A stretch of DNA of 52,063 bases from Nevskia sp. (lineage in GTDB: Bacteria; Pseudomonadota; Gammaproteobacteria; Nevskiales; Nevskiaceae), in assembly GCA_031291075.1 (NCBI GenBank), contig JARLJS010000014.1:1-52063 (forward strand), read 5' to 3'. Below are positions 42,528 to 48,055 of the stretch, in pieces; the first letter of the stretch is position 1; every line of letters starts with the position of its first letter. The position numbers and the translations under genes are program-made. The notes below the pieces were generated by a model. It was not told the origin of the DNA, made no database searches, and saw nothing but the letters and a program-made list of their open reading frames with translations.

Positions 42528-42531
<4 letters not shown>
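42058..42531 (-). CDS. greA: Transcription elongation factor GreA
   Basis: 157 residues from the ATG at 42531, overlapping the carB stop (ATGA). The N-terminal coiled coil (about 1-75) contains [17 protein letters not shown] and the acidic tip [14 protein letters not shown]. The C-terminal FKBP-like domain includes [23 protein letters not shown] and [17 protein letters not shown]. It rescues backtracked RNA polymerase by promoting transcript cleavage. The last codon and stop abut repeat element B. Confidence 0.97.
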
Positions 42532-45758
<3,227 letters not shown>

Positions 45759-45771
45759 CTATCTCTCGTTA

Positions 45772-46428
45772 TCAACTCACGCTGGCGGTGGCCAGCTTCA
45801 CCCCGAAACCCACGAAGGCGGCGCCGGCGCCGCCGGTCAATGCGGTGCGCGTGCGGCGCCAGCGGCGGAACGCGGCGGCCAGGCGGGCGCCGCACAGGAT
45901 CAGCACGCTCAGGTAGGCGAAGCTCATCGCCTGCGCCGTCACGCCCAGCAGGGCGAAGGACAGCGCCTTATGGACATAGGCGGGGTCGACGAACTGGATG
46001 AAGAAGGCGATGAAGAACAGGATCGCCTTCGGATTGAGCAGGCTGATGCCGAGCGCGCGCCGCAGCGGATCGCCGGCCTGCGGCGGCGTTTCCGTCGCGC
46101 TTTCCGCCGTATCCGCACGCCAGCCGCGCCAGGCGCCCGCCAGCATGTTGAGGCCCAGATAGACCAGGTAGGCGCCGCCGGCGCACTTGAGCAGCAGGAA
46201 CAGCGCCGGGTAGGCGTGCAGCAGGGAAGCCACCCCGGCGGAGGCGAGCACGGTCAACACCGCGTCGCCGATGAACACGCCGCAGGCGGCCCGGTAGCCC
46301 AGCCGCACGCCGCGGCGCGCCGCGGTGCTGAGCACGAACAGCGAGTTCGGCCCCGGCAGCAGGATCACGATCAGCGTGCCGACCAGGTAGGTCGGGAAGT
46401 GCACCACGCCGAAAAAGGGGTTACTCAT
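45772..46428 (-). CDS. leuE: LysE/RhtB-family amino acid exporter, LeuE-like
   Basis: 218 residues from the ATG at 46428. Six hydrophobic helices. The family signature LIVILLPGPNSLFVLSTAARRG is at about 18-39, with ACGVFIGDAVLTVLASAGVA next and LLNPKAILFFIAFFIQFVDP near 128-150, close to the E. coli leucine exporter LeuE. It probably exports leucine or related amino acids. The start codon is only 10 bp from the border of the inverted-repeat unit, with no clear ribosome site, so the insertion may have altered its expression. It ends 13 bp before carB. Confidence 0.88.
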   Translation of the reverse strand: MSNPFFGVVHFPTYLVGTLIVILLPGPNSLFVLSTAARRGVRLGYRAACGVFIGDAVLTVLASAGVASLLHAYPALFLLLKCAGGAYLVYLGLNMLAGAWRGWRADTAESATETPPQAGDPLRRALGISLLNPKAILFFIAFFIQFVDPAYVHKALSFALLGVTAQAMSFAYLSVLILCGARLAAAFRRWRRTRTALTGGAGAAFVGFGVKLATASVS

Positions 46429-46438
46429 AAGAAACCGG

Positions 46439-46898
46439 GATTCAGTCCGCAAATGAACGCAAATAAACGCAAATTCTGTTCGGTCATATTGGCCTGCTGT
46501 CGTCATGGTTTAACACGACGCGCTTTACCCCAAGCTTCGTCGTACCGAAATTGAGCAACAGCGCCACTTGCAGGTGGCTTGCCCTCAGATAGTTGATGAC
46601 CTGCGCCTCATGCTCCGGGGCAAGCCTTGATAGTGCCTTCAGTTCCACAACAAGTCGCTCCTCGACCAGAAAGTCTGCGAAGTAGATGCCTACTCGCTCG
46701 TACTTGTAAAAAACTGCAAGCTCTTTTTCCCGCTCGAATCGCAGCCCCGCTTCGCGGAGTTCGACCGATAGAGCATTGGCGTATACCGACTCGAGGAACC
46801 CGACGCCGAGTTCGTTGCTAACGGCCATAGCGCAGCCAATGACGCGCTCCGAAATCTTAGCCATTTGCGTTTATTTGCGTTCATTTGCGGACTGAATC
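46439..46898. mobile_element. 460-bp unit with perfect 36-bp terminal inverted repeats around a GxxExxY gene
   Basis: Positions 46439-46474 and 46863-46898 are exact reverse complements of each other over 36 bp; each contains GCAAATGAACGCAAATAAAC-type repeats. Between them lies essentially only the GxxExxY gene (46484-46864). The right repeat carries the last eight codons and the stop of carA, and the left repeat ends 10 bp from the leuE start. I find no target duplication at the ends. GxxExxY genes with similar flanking repeats are known as dispersed units in many bacteria, but their mobility has not been explained. Confidence 0.8.
46484..46864 (-). CDS. GxxExxY protein (PD-(D/E)XK nuclease-like)
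   Basis: 126 residues. The name-giving motif GFLESVY (Gly22-Glu25-Tyr28) is present. Further on, Asp64 in FADFLVEERLVVELKAL with Glu74 and Lys76 matches the D...ExK core of PD-(D/E)XK nucleases, the fold to which PF13366 is assigned. The ATG is at the inner edge of the right inverted repeat, 6 bp after the carA stop, and no ribosome site precedes it, so translation may depend on carA. The stop is 9 bp from the left repeat. Function is unknown; a nuclease that moves or maintains its own unit is possible. Confidence 0.85.
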   Translation of the reverse strand: MAKISERVIGCAMAVSNELGVGFLESVYANALSVELREAGLRFEREKELAVFYKYERVGIYFADFLVEERLVVELKALSRLAPEHEAQVINYLRASHLQVALLLNFGTTKLGVKRVVLNHDDSRPI

Positions 46899-48016
46899 AC
46901 TTCCACGAACCGGTCGAACAGGTAGGCCACATCGTGCGGTCCCGGGCTGGCCTCCGGGTGCCCCTGGAAGCTGAAAGCCGGCGCGTCGAGCAGGCGGATG
47001 CCCTGGTTCGAGCCGTCGAACAGGGAGCGGTGCGTCACCACCGCGTTGCCCGGCAGCGTCGCCTCGTCCACCGCGAAGCCGTGGTTCTGGCTGGTGATGA
47101 GCACGCGGCCGCTTTTGAGGTCCTGCACCGGGTGGTTGGCGCCGTGATGGCCGAACTTCATCTTGAGCGTTTTCGCTCCCGCCGCCAGGCCCAGAATCTG
47201 GTGCCCCAGGCAGATGCCGAACAGCGGCACGCGCCGCCGCAGGAACTCGCGGGCGGCATGGATGGCGTAAGTGCAGGGCTCCGGATCGCCGGGGCCGTTG
47301 GACAGCATCACGCCGGCCGGCTTCAGGGCCAGCACTTCCTCCGCGCCGGTCTGCGCCGGTACTACGGTGACCTGGCAGCCGCGATCCACCAGCATGCGCA
47401 GGATGTTGCGCTTGATGCCGAAGTCGTACACCACAACATTCCGGCTGCCGCCGGCATGTTCGGATTCGACATTGGTTTCCAGCTTCCAGGAGCCGCGCGT
47501 CCACGGATAGGGCTCCGCCACGCTGACGACCCTGGCCAGGTCCATTCCCTTCAGGCCCGGGAATGCCTTGGCGCGCCTGAGCGCCTCCTCCTCGCTGGCG
47601 TCCGCGCCGGCGAGGATGCAGCCATCCTGGGCGCCCTTGTCCCGCAGCAGGCGGGTCAGCCGGCGCGTGTCGACGCCGGCGATGGCCACTACGTTCTGCT
47701 CGCGCAGGTAGTCGCGGAAACCGCGGCGGTCGCGCCAGGAACTGGCAGGCCGTGGCACCTCGCGCAGGATCAGGCCCGCCAGCTGCACCTTTTCCGACTC
47801 GGCATCCTCGTCGTTGGTGCCGACGTTGCCGATGTGCGGATAGGTGAGCGTGACGATCTGCTCGCGATACGAGGGATCGGTCAGGATTTCCTGGTAGCCG
47901 GTCATGGCGGTGTTGAACACCACCTCGCCGACGCTGGCACCGTCTACGCCAATGGAAACACCCCGAAAAACGCTACCGTCAGCGAGAGCGAGCAGGGCCG
48001 GGGTGGTAGGCGTCAT
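46871..48016 (-). CDS. carA: Carbamoyl-phosphate synthase, small subunit
   Basis: 381 residues from the ATG at 48016. [13 protein letters not shown] and [17 protein letters not shown] form the N-terminal domain. The class I glutaminase follows: [12 protein letters not shown] with the nucleophile Cys near 260 and GHPEASPGP with the His-Glu pair near 350. It releases ammonia from glutamine for CarB. The final residues IQSANERK and the stop are encoded by the 36-bp inverted repeat of the inserted unit, so the native C-terminus has been replaced. This tail is outside the conserved fold, so activity is probably kept. Confidence 0.97.
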
Positions 48017-48055
48017 CGGTCCGTGGTCTTCCTTAAGCCGGGTGAGTACACACAA

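Follow-up and report, generated by a model that had tools for sequence, protein, structure and literature searches.

The stretch of DNA analyzed here, 52,063 nt from Nevskia sp. and referred to as the window, carries on its minus strand the gene order carA, nuclease, leuE-like gene, carB. These comprise carA (46871..48055), encoding the carbamoyl-phosphate synthase small chain, a GxxExxY/PDDEXK_3 nuclease-like gene of 126 amino acids (46484..46864), a leuE-like gene for a LysE family exporter starting MSNPFFG (45772..46428) and, beyond it, a gene that we take from its translation to be carB (42528..45758). The listed open reading frame of carA begins at a TTG, with the later ATG of MTPTTPALL being the likelier start. 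Between carA on one side and the leuE-like gene on the other lies a unit bounded by an inverted repeat, the left arm (46439..46474) and right arm (46863..46898) of which, neither assigned to a strand, are 36 nt long, 100% complementary by sequence comparison and separated by 388 nt. The nuclease-like gene is the sole gene between them. Each arm consists of three 10-bp units, and the stretch in common with other copies of the repeat measures 32 bp (46443-46474 on the left, 46863-46894 on the right), with the ends reading CAGT, at the outer end of the left arm, and ACTG.

The right arm holds the last eight carA codons and the stop codon, TAA at 46871-46873; 6 nt further on follows the ATG of the nuclease-like gene at 46864, which overlaps the arm by two bases. 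The ATG of leuE (46426-46428) lies 10 bp from the left border of the unit. An earlier note on this DNA had described 36-bp identical terminal repeats enclosing a nuclease gene alone, a right repeat supplying the end of carA and a left border 10 bp before leuE, all of which was borne out, the part conserved with other copies being 32 bp; its suggestion that the nuclease is coupled to carA translation fits the geometry of stop, 6-nt spacing and start. The observation of a repeat-flanked nuclease gene at carA is therefore confirmed. G+C content is 54.6% in the nuclease gene versus 66.5% in carA and 63.8% in the window. The window contains no further copy of the repeat, no promoter-like site was found in 46350-47100 and no Rfam family matched in 46300-47000 at E values up to 1. 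The idea that the arm provides stops in all three frames was dropped, as they occur in just two of three.

Sites without the unit clarified how it came to lie at this position. In four relatives of the same genus (G001, G003, G007 and G011), carA and leuE adjoin directly, with the carA stop and leuE start overlapping as ATGA in every case, so that the empty sites sought as a check are present. When the flanks in the window are joined at CAGT/ACTG, carA ends in RFVEVINPGFL and runs into leuE with that same ATGA overlap. Further frame-preserving boundaries yield it too, so that the join does not fix the exact cut. Because the joined flanks restore an intact carA frame, the unit represents an insertion and has not replaced the end of carA, as had been claimed. 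The related claim that it separates carA from carB is correct in that the nuclease gene lies between them; the unit is not the sole cause, since leuE, which is also next to carA in the four relatives without the unit, stands between them as well.

The encoded protein scored 141.7 bits against the TIGR04256 profile (cut-off 35) and 139.6 bits against PF13366 (cut-off 22). It contains the residues G22-E25-Y28, D64, E74-x-K76 and Q88xxxY92, presumably the active site, and eleven positions, among them E25, D64, E74, K76, Q88 and Y92, are invariant in 33 sequences. The structure was predicted with a pLDDT of 94.4, and its nearest PDB fold was SSO0001 (4ic1; E 8e-4), which we take to be a Cas4 protein and which was the sole entry with E <0.001. 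Weaker fold matches were, in order, a restriction-like protein, LHK-Exo, lambda exonuclease, MGME1 and AddAB, neighbors that represent the RecB/Cas4/lambda-exonuclease branch with QxxxY. On the basis of this model, the GxxExxY protein is a compact RecB/Cas4-type PD-(D/E)XK putative nuclease. A match to a solved structure found by sequence (E 0.051) was taken as chance. A defence-system library gave just one match (E 0.047), PHROGs one family of unknown function (3e-4) and viral contigs one weak GxxExxY locus, while phage records contained no GxxExxY match. Among plasmids, a protein search retrieved 8 records with <60% identity and a DNA search none.

The same type of end sequence, proposed in the earlier note as something to look for elsewhere in the genome, proved abundant. 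In the genome of the window (302 contigs, 5.65 Mb, 96.86% complete), an exact arm pattern matched 47 times and its reversed control 0 times, indicating that the repeats are not due to chance; a shorter arm pattern also gave 47 matches, versus 1 for its control. From 38 retrieved stretches of this genome we identified 39 gene-less arm pairs, the consensus arm of which equals that of the unit over 32 bases. These hairpins span 70-88 bp (CCGC to GCGG); most terminate in CAGT/ACTG, and the loop is usually 19-25 nt long. Judged by crude ORF calling, none of the 39 lies wholly inside a called gene, and for 20 the edge of a called ORF reaches 10-78 bp into the element; adjacent genes, called equally crudely, are co-directional in 32 cases, convergent in four and divergent in three. 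To the left of the 39 hairpins the flanking sequence is rich in A, to the right it is rich in T. For four of them, single-stranded DNA folding yielded z values of -6.8 to -14.1.

Comparison among the copies provided information on how they may have arisen. The two arms of a hairpin resemble each other no more than they resemble those of other hairpins (3.03 mismatches to the own arm versus 3.10 to others), and, considering arms only, co-variation amounts to 10 double changes versus a shuffled mean of 8.3. Loops are nearly unrelated between copies, with a mean longest common stretch of 4.45 versus 3.95 after shuffling and 11 of 741 loop pairs sharing at least 8 bases versus 2 when shuffled. Together, the lack of arm co-variation and the unrelated loops are not what one would expect if intact hairpins were simply copied: either a new copy does not reproduce an entire hairpin faithfully, or arms are under selection and loops drift. 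A hairpin orthologous between G042 and G034 keeps its loop. In G042, the hairpins L153, L306, L312 and L314 have apparently related, longer loops.

Hairpin sites, too, have counterparts without the element. At fadB-fadA, the joined flanks align without a break in G004, G007, G003 and G002, among others, and at serA-pheA they do so in G001, G003 and G007. Less clean fadB-fadA sites occur in G005, G009, G011 and G013, which match over about 40-50 bp more than the query stretch, and the serA-pheA gap is longer in G011. One G042 hairpin, common to G034 with a similar loop, is absent from G046 and G023, where matches are uninterrupted; for two further joined sites tested alongside it, other genomes matched in pieces only. 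A target duplication, looked for as a further check, was visible neither at carA nor at the G042 site, and among the 39 hairpins none stood clearly above shuffled pairing.

The gene itself behaves differently from the hairpins. It is present in one copy in the genome of the window, and nine relatives carry two or three GxxExxY genes with within-genome identities of 36-64%; near-identical copies within one genome were seen in none, these nine included. Since the gene is single-copy here and its multiple versions in relatives are this divergent, it is the gene-less hairpins that have multiplied, not the gene unit, and the description of the latter as a self-mobilizing unit is not upheld.

To assess how general the arrangement is, we surveyed the own genome and relatives, in which 46 GxxExxY genes occurred in 35 of 146 genomes. 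An inverted repeat with a score of at least 12 flanked 36 of the 43 genes that could be tested in relatives, as compared to 4 of 215 control positions in the same stretches (37 of 43 versus 7 of 215 with wider flanks), with two of 45 genes left out near contig ends. For GxxExxY loci from many phyla, represented by the best 80 of more than 590 and with six of the 80 left out near contig ends, the corresponding figures were 51 of 74 versus 1 of 370 controls, or 55 of 74 versus 5 controls with wider flanks. The score misses arms shifted by indels, and several of the seven low-scoring genes of relatives show iterated units by eye. A unit period of 8, 9 or 10 was called in 21 of 37 arms from relatives and 33 of 55 from many phyla; for the rest no period was called, and a period of 7 was never seen.

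The arms fall into three classes, AAAT, AGAT and AAAG/GAG, and the arm class follows the nuclease protein clade. A protein tree was built from 36 of the 46 genes, leaving out those that were broken, cut by contig ends or unclear in their start (L132, L133, L136, L144 and L146-L151). On this tree, with a class called in 32 of 36 rows (uncalled: L126, L128, L129 and L134) by a rule set after the arms had been inspected, the arm class changes twice in 32 rows, the minimum for three classes, as opposed to at least 9 changes in 200 shuffles (mean 13.7). Searching with AAAG/GAG-clade proteins gave 74 loci, of which 58 had the same arm class, one had another and 15 gave no call, versus 1 of 74 controls with that class.

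We also counted three exact arm patterns across the 146 genomes. The counts were 47/0/0 in the genome of the window, 0/43/0 in G021 and 0/0/45 in G027, and reversed-pattern controls gave at most 2 matches per strand in any listed genome. The gene was present in 14 of 17 genomes with at least 5 matches versus 21 of 129 others (Fisher 8e-8, kinship ignored), in 10 of 12 with at least 10 and in 21 of 33 with at least one, counts that include some matches from the units' own arms. All three patterns were absent from 113 of 146 genomes. The correspondence has exceptions on both sides. G042, a single contig of 99% completeness, contains 42 repeats, and none of its genes scores above the PF13366 cut-off; a looser search of the repeat-rich genomes G042, G038 and G130 returned nothing above it either, and G011, G034, G051 and G055 likewise contain repeats without the gene. 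Conversely, 14 of 35 gene-bearing genomes lack a match to the three patterns; being exact, these overlook many variants of the arm. In G058, G027, G067 and G065, eight stretches in which F3 repeats are spaced some hundred bases apart showed no obvious common gene among those ORFs of a rough call that were listed.

A parallel architecture was found for genes of the PF05635 family, which encode a four-helix-bundle protein known from 23S rRNA intervening sequences (IVSs) and occur in 27 of the 146 genomes. With one of 30 loci left out near a contig end, 20 of 29 testable genes (among L320-L349) were flanked by an inverted repeat scoring at least 12, versus 2 of 145 controls. Their arms had a period of 7 in 14 of 20 cases and of 12 in one, with none called in five; thus, arms of this IVS-type family in the relatives studied here mostly consist of 7-bp units. 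The IVS is likewise a small selfish insert with inverted-repeat ends and one small ORF, and an older idea quoted in the accessible part of PMC4990558 holds that the S23 ORF serves mobility. The two differ in that the IVS is located in 23S rRNA and encodes a PF05635 protein, whereas the gene studied here belongs to PF13366 and lies at carA. PF05635 genes encode no nuclease and have the same layout, which suggests that this architecture extends beyond a single nuclease and weakens the notion that the encoded protein must cut in every case. The genome of the window has one PF05635 gene, L337 (G000:C15:2379-2636), with GTGAGG-like stretches alongside.

The carA 3′ end is a shared site. Seven GxxExxY genes are located there (in the window, G037, G062, G065, G076, G077 and G082), spread over two families of the order, and all seven units have CGCAAATGAA-type arms. 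The six intact genes form one clade (96/88), the G037 copy being broken. This common location could equally stem from an ancient insertion that was later lost in places or from several separate insertions. A second shared site is represented by three GxxExxY genes of genus g17 (L131, L132 and L142) beside a gene that we take from its sequence to be metH-like. PF05635 genes, too, were observed beside the carA 3′ end, in G020 (L329, with an arm score of only 9) and G081 (L340, with an internal stop).

Several known systems share features with the unit. In miniature inverted-repeat transposable elements (MITEs) and insertion sequences, gene-bearing and gene-less copies have common ends. The same is true here; in contrast to those elements, however, no transposase lies between the ends, no target duplication was seen and gene-bearing copies are not near-identical. 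REPINs, as described in the accessible part of PMC3116915, are many short inverted pairs that form hairpins between genes, with loops in which length and hairpin capacity apparently matter more than sequence; a single-copy RAYT enzyme gene is bordered by the same repeat, and the enzyme differs from one repeat group to the next. To the extent covered by that source, the likeness comprises 39 hairpin-capable pairs, extragenic by crude call, a putative enzyme gene that is present once and has the repeat on either side, and arm classes that go with particular protein clades. The differences are that the gene here belongs to a PD-(D/E)XK nuclease family and lies between the arms, while RAYT is a Y1 transposase (at this locus, the gene between the arms is PF13366 and not a Y1 transposase), and that the arms are iterated 8-10 bp units, while REP sequences are palindromic. 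Tandem short units in opposite-strand pairs at variable distance and in many copies per genome are also known from Geobacter metallireducens, one example being three tandem copies of TCTCCGTS[Y]; the accessible part of PMC2700814 reads them as sites for global regulators of the IHF/HU type and names no nuclease.

A single nuclease gene and 39 hairpins that lack a gene but share its ends, together with a repeat that follows the nuclease tree, suggest a little-known kind of mobile DNA. There is good support for a link between nuclease and repeat; that the nuclease binds the arms and drives their copying is inferred, as is the mode in which new copies arise. We think it probable that the unit represents the gene-carrying form within a REPIN-like family, in which a RecB/Cas4-type nuclease takes the place of the Y1 transposase. 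Counting against such a nuclease-served family are G042 with its 42 repeats and no gene, the gene-bearing genomes without a pattern match, tempered by the many variants that exact patterns miss, and the absence of target duplications and near-identical gene copies.

G042 and, more broadly, the three of 17 repeat-rich genomes without the gene would be easier to understand if another enzyme, for example a Y1/RAYT transposase of the kind to which REPINs are tied in the accessible text of PMC3116915, moved the repeats and the GxxExxY gene were a passenger captured between two arms. We consider this unlikely, given that arms flank most of the tested GxxExxY genes from many phyla and that the arm class tracks the nuclease clade with two changes. 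The same tracking speaks against arms that are merely useful to the host as nucleoid-protein or regulator binding sites or transcript ends, with little mobility and a gene present by chance or as a regulator. For such host sites one can cite the paired tandem repeats of G. metallireducens, read as IHF/HU sites in the portion of PMC2700814 available, the A-rich left and T-rich right hairpin flanks, as at transcript ends, and the conservation of arms but not loops; relatives with the same gene pairs and no hairpin, and the 113 of 146 genomes without any of the three patterns, make this explanation improbable as well. Finally, the unit might be a homing-like selfish gene, the nuclease of which would cleave conserved sequence at the carA 3′ end so that the unit is copied in by repair, with the hairpins as by-products. 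The seven carA-end genes with one kind of arm in two families, their single intact clade (96/88) and the two four-helix-bundle genes at carA (G020 and G081) are in line with homing. The insertion point relative to the carA codons differs between the two families, however, descent from one ancestor, with the unit subsequently lost in some lineages, accounts for the shared place equally well and 39 hairpins occupy other sites, leaving homing a rather remote prospect.

For the nuclease-served, REPIN-like family that we favor, the protein would most likely recognize the arms, either as duplex sites or as a long hairpin or cruciform. Cutting there could let short gene-less arm pairs spread in trans into intergenic gaps. 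The gene unit itself would move rarely and be kept single-copy; in this genome it is coupled to carA, where the arm stops carA and the nuclease starts six bases later.

More tentatively, the two protein families may point to a class of mobile DNA not described in the literature searched: one-gene units enclosed by inverted repeats of iterated design, accompanied by hairpin satellites that lack the gene, in which the protein is not a classical transposase. Such a class might have at least two branches, GxxExxY nucleases with 8-10 bp units and four-helix-bundle proteins with 7-bp units, each protein clade reading its own repeat. Our searches, with most subscription papers and all preprints outside their scope, found no literature on TIGR04256 or PDDEXK_3 by name and, in the text accessible to them, no link between GxxExxY and such repeats.

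GxxExxY genes are known from many phyla, and the accessible text of the literature searched treats the gene family and the repeats apart. Short iterated repeats are common in environmental genomes. If it is true that every clade of the nuclease has a repeat of its own to serve, one explanation would cover both a protein family without a known role and an unexplained class of repeats, and nuclease-only spread of small DNA would become testable with one protein and one oligonucleotide.
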